49,161 bases of DNA from Clostridiales bacterium (lineage in GTDB: Bacteria > Bacillota > Dethiobacteria > Dethiobacterales > Dethiobacteraceae): the NCBI GenBank assembly GCA_018335855.1, contig JAGXRM010000011.1:1-49161 (forward strand). Reading direction: 5' to 3'. The translations under genes were made by a program, and so were the position numbers. Of the stretch, positions 40,563 to 46,937 are shown piece by piece (the first letter of the stretch is position 1; the number at the start of each line of letters is the position of its first letter). The notes under the pieces are model-generated. The model did not search any database. It was not told the origin of the DNA and worked only from the letters and a program-made list of their open reading frames with translations.

Positions 40563-40712
40563 TTAGCTTGTTTTGTTATGCTCGGAGTTATTAGGTCGCT
40601 GGGGAGTTTGCTCAGGCTTATTGATGGTGCAGCAATCCGGGTTTTGTCCCTGGAATTCTTTTTCGTTTGACTTTGCTAATTTCTCAAGAAAACGCATTAA
40701 AAATTTAAACAT
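40563..40712 (-). CDS. LDCC-motif-like putative metal-binding miniprotein
   Basis: A 49-residue protein, MFKFLMRFLEKLAKSNEKEF followed by GQNPDCCTINKPEQ. It matches the short family defined by an LDCC motif (here PDCC) after an amphipathic helix. ATG at 40712 has AGGAGG 7 bases upstream; longer readings have no such site. It follows copA in the same operon and likely handles a soft metal ion. Confidence 0.75.
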   Translation of the reverse strand: MFKFLMRFLEKLAKSNEKEFQGQNPDCCTINKPEQTPQRPNNSEHNKTS

Positions 40713-40801: not shown

Positions 40802-43351
40802 TTATGGAATCGGCAAGGCTAAGTCCGATTCATGAATGACGATGCTATTGTAGTCGGCATCAAAATTGTTACGACGCAACCGCAGAGAGTTCCAAACTAC
40901 ATTAACGGAACTCATACTCATGGCAGCCATACCGATCATTGGATGTAATAACCCCATGGCTGCAAAGGGAATTGCAATGGCATTATAGATCCAGGCCCAG
41001 AAATAATTTTGGCGGATTTTCTTGAATGTAGCGCGTGAAAGTTTAATGGCAGTTATTAGGCCGGCTAGATCACCACGAATGAGTGTGATGTCTGCTGCTT
41101 CAATGGCTATGTCTGTCCCTGTGCCAATCGCAATCCCTACATTAGCTTGTTTCAGCGCAGGTGCATCATTAATGCCGTCCCCAACCATGCCCACCATACC
41201 CAGCTTCTCTTGTAATCGTTTTATTTCTTCCACTTTGCCATCGGGCATAACTTCTGACACAACATGGTCAATGCCAAGAAGCTTCCCGATTGCAGCTGCT
41301 GTCCGCTTATTATCACCTGTAATCATCACTGTCTCTAGTCCTAATGATTTTAATTCGGACACAGCTAATTTTGCTTCTTCCTTTAGTGTGTCTGCAATGG
41401 CGATAATACCCGCAACTTTCTGATCTACAGCCACGATAACAACTGTTTTACCTTGTTCTTCAAGTTGCTCCATCCGCTCACCCAGCGCTCCGACCTCAAT
41501 CCCATTATCCTGCATCAGACGACGATTACCGACCAGTACGTGGTGTCCATCCACTTTTCCACCCACACCTTTACCAGTATGGGATGTAAATTCCAAGACT
41601 TCTTCGGGTTTAACGCCTTGTTCCTTAATCGCTTCCACCACAGCATGGGCAAGTGGATGTTCTGAGGCGGATTCCACGCTGGCTGCATAACTGAGCAGCT
41701 GTTTGTCCTCTAACCCACTAGTGACTTCCACTTCAGTCACAGCTGGTTTACCCTTCGTGAGAGTACCCGTCTTATCAAATGCAATGACTTTAATATCTTT
41801 CATCGTCTGAATTGCTTCACCGCGACGAATCAGCACGCCTTTTTCTGCGCCGATTCCACTCCCCACCATGAGTGCTGTTGGTGTAGCAAGACCTAATGCG
41901 CACGGACAGGATATTACCAGCACCGCAGCTGAAGCTAGATAAGCCAAGGTGAAGCGACCCACAGTTGGGTTTACCCAAGGTAGATAAGGTGCTGCGATAA
42001 CGAGTACATTACGCATGGAGTCGCCAAATAAGGCCCATGTTGTAAACGTGAGGATGGATAACACAATAATAGCCGGCACAAAGTAACCCGTAACTCGGTC
42101 AGCAAACTCCTGAATAGGAACTTTCGTTCCTTGCGCTTCCTCCACCATTTTAATTATCTGGGAGAGGAAGGTATCTTTGCCTACCTTTGTTGCCTCTACG
42201 TGTAAGAGACCTTGCTTATTGATGGTGGCACCAATCACTTCACTGCCGTTTTTCTTTTCAACGGGCAGGGACTCCCCTGTTGCCATGGACTCATCCACGG
42301 CACTATGCCCTTTAATTACGATACCGTCTGTCGGTATTTTCTCGCCAGGGCGAATAACCATCACATCGCCGGGTTGCAAATCTTCGATTGCAAGTTCCAC
42401 TTCTTCGCCATCACGTAGAACCTGCGCAGTTTTTGCTCCCATCTGTAAGAGCTTTTTAATGGCCTGGGAAGCTTGACCCTTGGCTCGAGCTTCCAGGTAA
42501 CGCCCAATCAAATGGAAGAACATAATGTTAGCACCCATCTCGATAAACGTAGTTACAGGGATGATAAAAGATGCCAGCCCGATTAGAAACGGTGGAATCG
42601 AACCCAGTGTCACTAATACGTCCATATTTGCACTACGGTGCCGTACTGCATTGAAACTGGATCTATGTGTTTTAGACCCGGCTACAAAGATGACGGGAAA
42701 TGCTAAAATTGCTATGATCGTTGTATAGAGATTAAAATTAATCATATACACAAACATATTAATAATCATCAATGTTATTATAGTAAGAGCAGGTACCCCA
42801 GCTATGATCATTCGTCTGCGGGCTTCCTTGACCTCTTTTTCTTCATCCTCTTCGGCTGCAGCAGCAGAAGAGTCCGCGGTTACATCCATTTTATAGCCTG
42901 CTGCGTCAACGAGTGCGTGTAATGCATTCAAATCCACTTTACCTGGGATATACGTGAGTGTTAGCTTATTAATGGCAAAGTTAACGTTTGCAGTAACTAC
43001 GCCTTCTGCACCAGTAAGAATTTTTTCAATTGACTGAGCACAACTAGCACAAGACATTCCAGTGACACGAAAAACCTCTGTTATTGGCCCTGCTGTACCA
43101 CTGGCACGCCGCTTTTTGCCAGCATCTACACCGTCCACTTCTATTACGGTAGCAGAATAGCCAGCACTTTCCACTGCCCTCATCAATGCTTCGGGGCCTG
43201 TTACACCGGTATCAAAAGTTACATATGCTTTTTGAGCGGGAAAATTAACGCTCGCCTCATTTACACCTTCTGTACTTTTTAATGCTTTTTCCACAGATTG
43301 AGCACAAGAGGTACATGTCATATCCCCAATTTTTAAAATAGCCTTACTCAT
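40802..43351 (-). CDS. copA: Copper-translocating P1B-type ATPase
   Basis: An 849-residue Cu(I) exporter. Two N-terminal heavy-metal domains with CxxC (MTCTSC near residue 13, MSCASC near 100), eight membrane helices, TGES actuator motif, CPC in [12 protein letters not shown] for metal transport, phosphorylation site [11 protein letters not shown] motif in SEHPLAH, and [12 protein letters not shown]. The C-terminal metal-site helix ([30 protein letters not shown]) fits CopA. First gene of the minus-strand metal operon. Confidence 0.95.
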
Positions 43352-43578: not shown

Positions 43579-43607
43579 TTGCATATATCATGTTATTATG
43601 ATATATT
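43579..43607 (+). promoter_or_regulatory. Promoter and palindromic operator of the arsR-merT-copZ operon
   Basis: TTGCAT (43579-43584), 17-base spacer, TATATT (43602-43607). Overlapping both hexamers is a perfect inverted repeat, ATATATCAT-GTTATT-ATGATATAT (43583-43606), as expected for an ArsR/SmtB repressor site. The leader before the GGAGGTG ribosome site would be only a few bases long. Confidence 0.75.
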
Positions 43608-43629: not shown

Positions 43630-43959
43630 TTGCAGGTAAAACAGCAGCAATTAATGAAGGCAGAAATCATTGCAAAGTTTTTTTCGGGTTTCTCCAATCC
43701 TGTTCGTTACAGGGTAATCGAAGCATTATGCGAGAAAGAAATGACGGTAAATGAGTTGGTTTCGCAGCTTGAGTGTTCACAAAGCCAAATCTCCAACCAT
43801 TTAAACTGCTTGCGGTGGTGCGGATTTGTATCAAACCGTCAGGAAGGTCGACATGTTTATTATCAGGTTACCAATCATAGGATTCATGAGATTCTTATTC
43901 TCGCCAAATCAGTTGTCTCAGAGAACAGCGCACAAATAAGTTCATGTACTAGAATGTAG
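43630..43959 (+). CDS. ArsR/SmtB-family metal sensor, CmtR-like
   Basis: A 109-residue winged-helix repressor: FFSGFSNPVRYRVIEALCEKEMTVNELVSQLECSQSQISNHLNCLRWCGFVSNRQEGRHVYYQV. The recognition-helix region has Cys60 and Cys64 (NCLRWCGFV), and a third Cys lies at 106 near the C-terminus. This is the arrangement of the Cd(II)/Pb(II) sensor CmtR (Cys57, Cys61, Cys102). TTG start at 43630 with GGAGGTG 7 bases upstream; an ATG at 43654 is possible but lacks such a site. It should repress its own operon through the palindrome at 43583-43606 until soft metals bind. Confidence 0.88.
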   Translation: MQVKQQQLMKAEIIAKFFSGFSNPVRYRVIEALCEKEMTVNELVSQLECSQSQISNHLNCLRWCGFVSNRQEGRHVYYQVTNHRIHEILILAKSVVSENSAQISSCTRM

Positions 43960-43974
43960 CAAGGAGAGAATTCT

Positions 43975-44274
43975 ATGAGAGAAAAGTTGTCCGGGCTTAG
44001 TTCAGTTATCGCCTCTTTTTTTGCCTCTATATGTTGACTGGGTCCACTGATTTTTATACCGCTAGGTCTTAGTGGTATCAGCGGCGTCTTAGCGGCATCC
44101 TTATCAAGGTACAGAAGTTTCTTTATCCTGTTTGCTGTCCTATTACTTAGTCTTGCTCACTGGCAAATGAGCACAAATGCCAGGCCAAGTAAAAGCAGCA
44201 AAATTGTGGTATGGGTATCCACGGTTCTCACTATTTTTATCTTGCTTTATAATCGCTTCCAGGGAGGTTTTTAA
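43975..44274 (+). CDS. merT: MerT-like mercury/heavy-metal transporter, candidate selenoprotein (TGA at codon 21)
   Basis: A 99-residue, three-helix inner-membrane transporter if TGA 44035-44037 is read as an amino acid. The sequence around it is FFASIC-U-LGPLIFIPLGLSG, matching the MerT pattern ASxCCLGPLxLxxLGxSG: the TGA replaces the second Cys of the pair that binds Hg(II) in helix 1. Helix 2 (SFFILFAVLLLSLAHW) and helix 3 (IVVWVSTVLTIFILLY) are intact, with stop TAA at 44272. The AAGGAG site is 6 bases from the ATG, 15 bases after arsR. A SECIS-like hairpin follows at 44056-44078. The second Cys pair of classical MerT is absent. Alternative: a fresh nonsense mutation, less likely given the hairpin and the intact rest. 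Confidence 0.8.
44056..44078 (+). other. Candidate bacterial SECIS element of merT
   Basis: In the mRNA AUACCGCU (44056-44063) pairs with AGUGGUAU (44071-44078) over all eight positions (one G-U), leaving a 7-base loop AGGUCUU. The first stem base is 19 bases, and the loop 27 bases, after the UGA, within the spacing known for bacterial SECIS hairpins. The loop contains AGGUCU, the same apical loop as in the E. coli fdhF SECIS that SelB recognises. A CUG/CAG pair can extend the stem below a bulge. Confidence 0.72.
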
Positions 44275-44619
44275 ATGTCCGACTGCTGTAATGTAAAAAA
44301 ATTAAATGCAACGGAAACGTTTTACTGTCCAAGGTGCAATAAAGCAGGCAAACCAGTGCAGATAATTACTTTAAAAAGCTTGTTGGTTCCGACAGCATGG
44401 ACAGACTGACCGAATACTGATCACCTGTTTTGTTCTGAGGCTAAATGCGAGACTGTGTATTTTGGCAGAAACGGCGATATTTTTTCTGTAACAGACATCA
44501 AAGTTGCCGTTTTCCAGAAAACAACGGGGGATGATTATCCCGTTTGTTATTGTTTCGGTTGGACAAATAAAAGAATACAAGATGAACTCAAAACGTCAAA
44601 TGTTTCTCTTCACGCTTAG
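44275..44619 (+). CDS. CopZ-type zinc/2Fe-2S metallochaperone domain, candidate selenoprotein (TGA at codon 45)
   Basis: A 114-residue protein if TGA 44407-44409 is decoded. Cys4-Cys5, Cys18-x-x-Cys21 (YCPRCN), Cys53 and Cys58 (LFCSEAKCETVYF) and Cys91-x-Cys93 (VCYCFGWT) match the N-terminal CopZ domain known from Archaeoglobus, where these residues bind zinc and a 2Fe-2S cluster. The AGGGAGG site is 7 bases from the ATG, directly after the merT stop. The frame is intact to TAG 44617 apart from the TGA, which lies in TAWTD-U-PNTDHLFC, not at an invariant Cys. A downstream hairpin is possible (GUUCU/AGAC with GC/GC and loop UAAAU) but weaker than in merT. It probably passes metal between MerT and a reductase or efflux protein. 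Confidence 0.65.
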
Positions 44620-44715: not shown

Positions 44716-45030
44716 TTAGAGGATACGCTGCCAGTCGCGTCTTGCGTAAAGGATTCTCTCCACATCAACAACGTTTGACTTTTCGTCTATCGTAAAAAAG
44801 ACAATATAGTTCTTTACGGGTAGCTTGCGATATCCTAACATTGCAAGTCTTTCATCCGTCACATAAGAGCATTTTTGCGGCATAAGCGCCAGTCCCGCTA
44901 TCGCTTCGTCCATGGCATCCATCATCTTAATTGCCGTCATAGGTGCTGACAGTTGCGCGGAGATATATCGGACAATGTCGCGAAGGTCGTTTTCGGCAGG
45001 TTCAGATATGTCAACCCTATATCTTGCCAT
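44716..45030 (-). CDS. RelE/ParE family toxin
   Basis: A 104-residue toxin of the RelE/ParE fold: YRVDISEPAENDLRDIVRYI at the start and GYRKLPVKNYIVFFTIDE...VERILYARRDWQRIL at the end, which is the family core. It overlaps its antitoxin by 14 bases. The 96 bases to its left contain no recognisable gene. Confidence 0.9.
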   Translation of the reverse strand: MARYRVDISEPAENDLRDIVRYISAQLSAPMTAIKMMDAMDEAIAGLALMPQKCSYVTDERLAMLGYRKLPVKNYIVFFTIDEKSNVVDVERILYARRDWQRIL

Positions 45031-45289
45031 CTGTTATTTCCTGCCGGATGTCGCGCATGACATCTTCTAGCGGACGCTTCCTGCCCTCTTTTACCGCCGT
45101 CATTCCCTCATCAAGCAAACGGTAAAGTTCAAGCTTCCCGCTTAGCATCTCATAAACCTCCATGCTCATAACAGCCAAATCACCCTGTCCGTTTTTAGTA
45201 ATAAAGACAGGCTCCCTGCTTTCACGGCAGAATGTCGAGATTTCATTATAGTTATTCCTTAAGTCCGTACTGGATTTAATGTTTGGCAT
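45017..45289 (-). CDS. Phd/YefM family antitoxin
   Basis: A 90-residue antitoxin: STDLRNNYNEISTFCRESREPVFITKNGQGDLAVMSMEVYEML, the standard Phd/YefM DNA-binding half, with a C-terminal toxin-binding helix (EGRKRPLEDVMRDI). Forms a module with the RelE-like toxin and likely autoregulates. Confidence 0.9.
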   Translation of the reverse strand: MPNIKSSTDLRNNYNEISTFCRESREPVFITKNGQGDLAVMSMEVYEMLSGKLELYRLLDEGMTAVKEGRKRPLEDVMRDIRQEITDGKI

Positions 45290-45627: not shown

Positions 45628-45879
45628 TCACTAGATGTTTTCATAGGAGTACCTCCAGATAACTTCGGAGTAGTTTTGTGATGCGGAAGGTTTCGGCCAT
45701 CTGCATAAGCAAGTTCAGATTCTTGTCGCTTCTCCTTGCGTATGGATGAAATGCTTAAAAATATCATGCCACTCCTGAAAAAGTTACAGGTTGCTGAATA
45801 CTGGAAGCAATTTTTGAAAGTGTAGAACAAAAAGGGGAAATACAAAAAGGTTTATTTTACGGTGGGTGGTAAGAAAAAG

Positions 45880-46081
45880 AAATCGATATTGCCCTTAGAT
45901 GCTGTTCCAAGGGCGATTGTAAACCGTGACACAACGGGCGTATTTAAGTTAGTGGCCGATGCAAAAACATCAAAACTATTGGGTGTTCATATTAGCAGAA
46001 AATGCAGGAGATGTAATTTATGCGGCAACATTAGCGGTTAAATTTGGCTTAACAGTTGGGGTCGGTTCCTCACATCTTTAA
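45880..46081 (+). pseudogene. Mercuric reductase (merA) C-terminal remnant
   Basis: The plus strand reads [33 protein letters not shown], then after a one-base shift at 45994 [22 protein letters not shown]. These are consecutive conserved segments of the dimerisation domain of MerA. The N-terminal domains, the active-site CxxxxC and the final CC are absent. It suggests an original arsR-merT-copZ-merA operon later broken by toxin-antitoxin insertions. Confidence 0.78.
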
Positions 46082-46264: not shown

Positions 46265-46591
46265 CTACTCATGTTCAGAAATCTTAAACAAAGACTGCAA
46301 CCAATTTTGACGTCCGTGGAGTACGCGGGCAATAACTATTTTGTCATCCAGCACCCGATAGAAAATGATATAGGGATTTTGCACAATTCGCCTGTAGCCG
46401 CGCTCAGCGCCGGGAGCATCTTCCTCAGGCAAAACAGCACCTTTCTCCGGGAAATCACCAAGCTGAGCAATAGCATTGTAAAGACGCGACCGCAGCATTT
46501 CCGCCGCTTTTTTATTATCCTGTGAGATATAAGAGAAGATGCTGTCTATGTCATAGTAGGCAGCTTCAGAAAGAAGGATTTTTTTATGCAT
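46265..46591 (-). CDS. RelE/ParE family toxin
   Basis: A 108-residue toxin: KKILLSEAAYYDIDSIFSYISQDN at the start and GYRRIVQNPYIIFYRVLDDKIVIARVLHGRQNW at the end, including the terminal HGRQNW typical of ParE. It overlaps the antitoxin by eight bases. Confidence 0.9.
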   Translation of the reverse strand: MHKKILLSEAAYYDIDSIFSYISQDNKKAAEMLRSRLYNAIAQLGDFPEKGAVLPEEDAPGAERGYRRIVQNPYIIFYRVLDDKIVIARVLHGRQNWLQSLFKISEHE

Positions 46592-46874
46592 CTTCTATTC
46601 TCTTTTTTAGCGTCACAAAGGTTTCTTCAAAATCTCTTAGCTGCTTTCCTTCAGAGATTTCCCGGTCAACATCTGCCAACATCCTGCCTAATTGTTGCCT
46701 TGCGAGCATTTTTTGAAAAGCCTCATAACTCATCACCACCAAATCAGCCTCACCGTTCTTCGTAACAATTATCGGGGCTTGTGTTTCATGGCAGAGTTTG
46801 GAAAATGTGTTATAGTCATGGCGTATCGTGCTGGATGGCTTTATGTCCATAGCGAACGGTTCATATGGTTTCAT
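46584..46874 (-). CDS. Phd/YefM family antitoxin
   Basis: A 96-residue antitoxin: SSTIRHDYNTFSKLCHETQAPIIVTKNGEADLVVMSYEAFQKML. The ATG at 46874 is preferred; the longer frame would extend across the -10 of its own promoter at 46908-46937. C-terminal helix EISEGKQLRDFEET binds the toxin. Confidence 0.88.
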   Translation of the reverse strand: MKPYEPFAMDIKPSSTIRHDYNTFSKLCHETQAPIIVTKNGEADLVVMSYEAFQKMLARQQLGRMLADVDREISEGKQLRDFEETFVTLKKRIEDA

Positions 46875-46907
46875 TTTACCCACGTCCTTTGGTATTATTA
46901 TGACAAT

Positions 46908-46937
46908 ATTATACCATTCCTGCTTTATGTGATTCAA
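46908..46937 (-). promoter_or_regulatory. Promoter of the second toxin-antitoxin module
   Basis: On the minus strand TTGAAT (46937-46932), 18-base spacer, TATAAT (46913-46908), 34 bases before the antitoxin ATG. Upstream (to 47,070, minus strand) a helix-turn-helix-like fragment, EREEIAEKLGYKNPMSLDSF, can be read without a start. Confidence 0.6.

Follow-up and report, generated by a model that had tools for sequence, protein, structure and literature searches.

Here we report that a 49,161-nucleotide stretch of DNA from a Clostridiales bacterium (hereafter, the window) very probably carries a MerT-family gene for a true selenoprotein, in which selenocysteine (Sec) would be decoded at UGA44035 and the resulting Cys20-Sec21 pair would take a soft metal, most likely Hg(II). 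The reading of UGA44035 as Sec in a MerT-like protein, already proposed in a first-pass annotation of the same DNA, is strongly supported by comparative sequence evidence: the position of the TGA, the hairpin behind it, the sel genes of the genome, homologs carrying the TGA together with a covarying hairpin, and Bacilli homologs, in which TGC or TGT stands at this codon and the stem is incomplete. All features discussed below are listed in Table 1.

Table 1. Coordinates of the features in and around the merT locus (window numbering).
Feature	Position	Strand	Remarks
Heavy-metal P-type ATPase	40802..43351	-	Two HMA domains; divergent neighbour
Inverted repeat	43583..43606	.	ATATATCAT-6-ATGATATAT (9-6-9); before repressor gene; candidate operator (putative function)
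ArsR/SmtB-family repressor, CmtR-like	43630..43959	+	CxxxC in recognition region, C-terminal Cys; TTG start picked from ribosome site
MerT-like selenoprotein gene	43975..44274	+	99 codons, then TAA; predicted Cys20-Sec21 in helix 1
In-frame TGA read as selenocysteine	44035..44037	+	Codon 21; sole TGA within the merT frame
SECIS-type hairpin	44056..44078	+	Stem 44056-44064/44070-44078, loop GGUCU; from fold, covariation and leave-one-out model
CopZ-N-terminus-like (zf_CopZ / [2Fe-2S]) frame	44275..44619	+	Starts directly after merT stop; TGA-interrupted
Second in-frame TGA	44407..44409	+	In CopZ-like gene, codon 45
Frameshifted remnant of Bacillus-type merA	45865..46057	+	About residues 446-510; 72-74% and 75-87% identity in two frames

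Translation, together with an AAGGAG ahead of the ATG, bore out the earlier description of merT as a complete frame with one internal TGA and a good ribosome site. With the TGA taken as a residue, the protein matched Pfam MerT (PF02411) at 39.9 bits (5.1e-10), above the gathering score of 32.9 bits, and NCBIfam merT_RC607 (NF033560) at 77.2 bits (9.4e-22), below the cut-off of 130 bits; its hydropathy is compatible with a few membrane segments. Alignment with Bacilli MerTs placed the TGA codon at the second Cys of ACCLGPL, which confirmed the suggestion that it occupies the second position of the helix-1 CC pair, and the vicinal soft-metal-binding pair expected of this helix is present as Cys20-Sec21. 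Cys directly precedes Sec (CU) and Ser stands at position -3; C20 is the only Cys of the protein. Tn501-type MerT has a second, cytoplasmic Cys pair, which is absent here. A gene caller without TGA recoding would stop at codon 21, and merT is therefore easily lost in annotation.

The first-pass annotation had proposed to compare this codon among homologs, and related anaerobes proved to have TGA followed by a conserved, covarying hairpin. Homologs with one TGA each occurred in a further genome of the family and in two more of the class, and in an even sample of the phylum matches were found in 27 of 398 genomes, with one TGA inside 31 of the 34 matching places. The tblastn comparison showed that the homolog TGA falls at the same codon as that of the window, and it could be aligned in 28 distinct homologous sequences, in which Cys was always present at either -1 (CU) or -3 (CxxU) of Sec. 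TGC or TGT occupied the Sec codon in the Bacilli homologs, where merA follows, as well as in L056 and L126, two copies from the phylum sample. A search of plasmids returned 21 records, all with less than 60% identity; they came from Enterococcus, Paenibacillus and other Gram-positive genera. As merT was absent from the single same-genus genome compared, it is an accessory gene.

The hairpin becomes convincing when relatives are considered. It follows the UGA by 27 nt and has a stem of 9 bp if the closing pair A44064-U44070 is counted; the 8-bp hairpin with loop AGGUCUU described earlier is the same structure. As in a SECIS element, it lies just 3' of the UGA, has G at the first two loop positions and is kept in relatives. 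AGGUCU is the loop motif of the fdhF SECIS, and the apical loop of this Escherichia coli element is shared by the window hairpin. Taken alone, the fold was mildly unusual (z -1.6 to -1.7), and fewer than 1% of the TGA triplets in the window were followed by an equally long stem at a permitted distance (11 of 1600 reached 10 bp with wobble pairs allowed). Its significance rests on the comparative data, that is, covariation and the leave-one-out model, and not on the fold alone. A stem was found at the same distance in all 28 distinct TGA-containing sequences, with GGTCT as the loop in most and GGTTT, GGGTT or similar in the rest. In the hairpin alignment of the TGA-containing homologs, 79.5% of cells paired, and covariation reached 0.384 as compared with 0.226 (sd 0.020) in shuffled alignments and at most 0.270 when the hairpin was slid; the closing pair appeared as CG, AU, GC and UA across homologs. 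These statistics changed little when the window sequence was omitted. Moreover, a covariance model built without the window scored 44035-44088 at 54.6 bits (E 1.9e-13); the second-best match in the window reached 9.9 bits. Just two to five of eight stem positions paired in Cys homologs (three to five in those of Bacilli), whereas the window copy was fully paired; Bacilli Cys homologs scored 19-28 bits on a model that included the window, the score being partly plain sequence homology. The Rfam model SECIS_1 had no match in the source genome and likewise none in 14 control genomes, and an Rfam scan of the region gave only chance-level matches to unrelated families.

The source genome (G000; 2.96 Mb, 99.5% complete) encodes the machinery for Sec insertion, as a search advised in the first-pass annotation detected selA, selB, selC (tRNA-Sec) and selD. 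The selD assignment concerns the frame adjoining selB, which reads GGUAAK ... ATDISGFGLLGH, was recognized by eye as SelD and has a GCACAGGTTCTGTGC hairpin. SelD is itself a selenoprotein in this genome (GGUAAK); its TGA lies on the minus strand of L009, a little upstream of 1399, and the gene stands beside selA and selB.

Sec-containing MerT is a known but unstudied family, of which the window gene is a further, well-supported member. The reviews PMC9312934 and PMC13188914 list a putative Sec protein for mercuric transport (PF02411, ABB16073.1) and credit it to Zhang and Gladyshev 2007; a table of 2026 gives the motif as C/SxxU, and Sec-containing MerP appears in a 2008 survey. Like the window protein, the ABB16073.1 type belongs to the MerT family and has a helix-1 Sec with a nearby Cys, but its motif is C/SxxU, whereas the window protein has CU with Ser at -3. 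NCBIfam NF045683 (MerT/CopZ fusion-like heavy metal transport selenoprotein) also describes a Sec MerT joined to a metal-binding domain; it is, however, a fusion of 235 positions, whereas the window merT is a separate gene that scored 28 bits against a cut-off of 375. The best-scoring model was that of the Bacillus RC607-type MerT (NF033560), which shares length and fold with the window protein but has Cys-Cys in place of Cys-Sec, no complete SECIS-type stem and a merA operon. The window MerT clearly exemplifies a membrane transporter in which Sec probably serves as a metal ligand and not as a redox catalyst.

The gene, the place of its TGA, the conserved covarying hairpin and the Sec machinery are evident from sequence; from there we infer that Sec is inserted, what is transported, in which direction and to which partner. 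SelB and tRNA-Sec would decode UGA44035 at the hairpin 44056-44078 and thereby place Cys20-Sec21 in transmembrane helix 1. If the protein works as MerT does, this pair may pick up a soft, thiophilic metal ion on the outer side, most likely Hg(II); the ion would then be passed inward to a thiol acceptor, which in relatives could be the CopZ-like protein of the adjoining gene. Mercury as the substrate is suggested by the CmtR-like ArsR repressor, the CopZ-like neighbour, the Sec-MerP and MerB-like partners in relatives and the merA remnant. The first-pass annotation had described a Cys-Sec MerT tuned for mercury; the Cys-Sec MerT stood, whereas tuning for mercury is here kept as a proposal, since no intact merA was found among MerA-profile matches in the genome and the cluster looks partly degraded.

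The repressor encoded upstream of merT contains a CLRWC motif, scored 84.1 bits against the ArsR/SmtB superfamily model NF033788 (cut-off 55) and 59 bits against the model of CmtR, a Cd(II)/Pb(II) sensor, below the equivalog cut-off of 150; its relatives in PDB are SmtB and CmtR. It is 67% identical to the ArsR that precedes Sec-merT in locus L101, and probably controls the merT operon. The divergently oriented P-type ATPase (TIGR01525, 650 bits; TIGR01511, 588 bits; both over the cut-off) may be a candidate member of the merT system. Beside it lies a gene for an LDCC-motif mini metal-binding protein (40566-40712, minus strand; NF040898, 52 bits).

It seems rather unlikely that this Sec-containing MerT-fold protein carries a cargo other than mercury, such as Cd, Pb, Cu or a sulfur/selenium compound. 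Such a cargo would agree with the resemblance of the regulator to Cd/Pb-sensing CmtR (59 bits), with the copper type of the divergent P-type ATPase and with the sister CxxU type, which is tied to rhodanese and not to mer genes; however, close CU relatives adjoin Sec-MerP and a MerB-like lyase, and CC relatives precede merA. In L101 the cluster consists of ArsR, MerT(U), a lipoprotein MerP with Sec (GFTUASC) and CopZ, and in L107 of ArsR, a ferredoxin-like protein, MerT(U), MerP(U), a MerB-like lyase and CopZ. MerP-like lipoproteins directly downstream of Sec-merT were found in L101, L105, L107 and L109; in each, the first Cys of the HMA motif is replaced by an in-frame TGA (GFTU-ASC or a similar sequence), and stems come after the MerP TGAs of L101 and L107 as well. 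Several other CU genes are solitary among unrelated genes.

The CxxU genes showed a different arrangement: all 13 (L102, L104, L106, L108, L110, L112, L113, L115, L116, L121, L124, L125 and L127) had a frame for a rhodanese-like lipoprotein within 37-136 nt downstream, as did none of the 17 CU genes including that of the window, these being counts of loci examined that ignore kinship, with some CU contigs short. Genome G144 has a CxxU-type Sec-MerT with a rhodanese gene behind it, and several genomes contain both types together. When the motif columns were kept, CxxU formed one group in 76% of bootstrap trees; when they were omitted, CxxU took 4 changes in the tree of the same short proteins, and a single CxxU clade had an AU p of 0.13. 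The arrangement suggests that the CxxU type has a role other than mercury and, with it, that not every Sec-MerT is a mercury transporter. We tentatively propose two functional classes, in which Cys-Sec proteins would move mercury-like ions with Sec-MerP and CopZ-like partners, and Cys-x-x-Sec proteins, always before a rhodanese lipoprotein, would handle sulfur/selenium species and not mercury. If this were true, the published 'mercuric transport' selenoprotein would be partly misnamed. The split is apparently new, as the accessible portions of the open-access literature contained no description of it. The CU, CxxU and CC forms and their neighbours offer a direct route to testing what Sec adds to soft-metal transport.

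The locus also shows signs of decay. A classical mer operon needs an intact merA, whereas the window cluster has just a frameshifted remnant. Search of the source genome with MerA profiles gave no match over the cut-off and no intact merA, and for MerP nothing was obtained beyond P-type ATPase HMA domains and one small HMA frame on contig C55; a MerB search of the same genome had no match, and neither had the control. With no intact merA over the cut-off and no recognizable MerP apart from HMA domains, the classical route of Hg(II) import and reduction seems to be incomplete in this genome, and the local metal-resistance cluster looks partly decayed. An in-frame TGA in the next gene, the merA fragment downstream and the lack of merT in the same-genus genome would all suit the view that the mer cluster is decaying and that merT is one of its pseudogenes, with TGA 44035 a plain nonsense mutation. 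We consider this very improbable, as the same codon is TGA across the phylum and a model based on other species gave the window sequence 54.6 bits; furthermore, merT keeps an otherwise intact frame and a fully paired stem, which speaks against its having been caught up in the decay.

The TGA of the CopZ-like gene, which the first-pass annotation had overlooked, has a different character from that of merT. The frame was assigned from PF18423 (1.4e-18) and NF047645 (88 bits against a cut-off of 100). The column of TGA 44407 is variable across 36 homologs and never Cys, confident CopZ-like homologs had no internal TGA (one 24-bit match with three stops lies outside this set), and no hairpin followed it (z 0.10 and -0.22, best permitted stem 5 bp, no covariance-model match). 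On these three grounds, TGA 44407 is probably a nonsense mutation or a sequencing error and not Sec. Although the frame stays open for 69 codons past this TGA with a conserved CYCFGW motif, and CopZ-family selenoproteins exist, it is scarcely credible that both TGAs encode Sec, which would make the neighbour another selenoprotein (Sec at codon 45), because the known Sec motifs of the family are CU and GxUC while the N-terminal pair here is CC, Cys occurs in 0 of 36 homologs in the aligned column, confident homologs lack the TGA, and fold, stem count and model all failed to reveal a hairpin.

Two small gene pairs in the list of open reading frames (44716-45289 and 46265-46937, minus strand) resemble RelE/ParE-type toxin-antitoxin modules; they are interspersed with the CopZ-like frame and the merA remnant.
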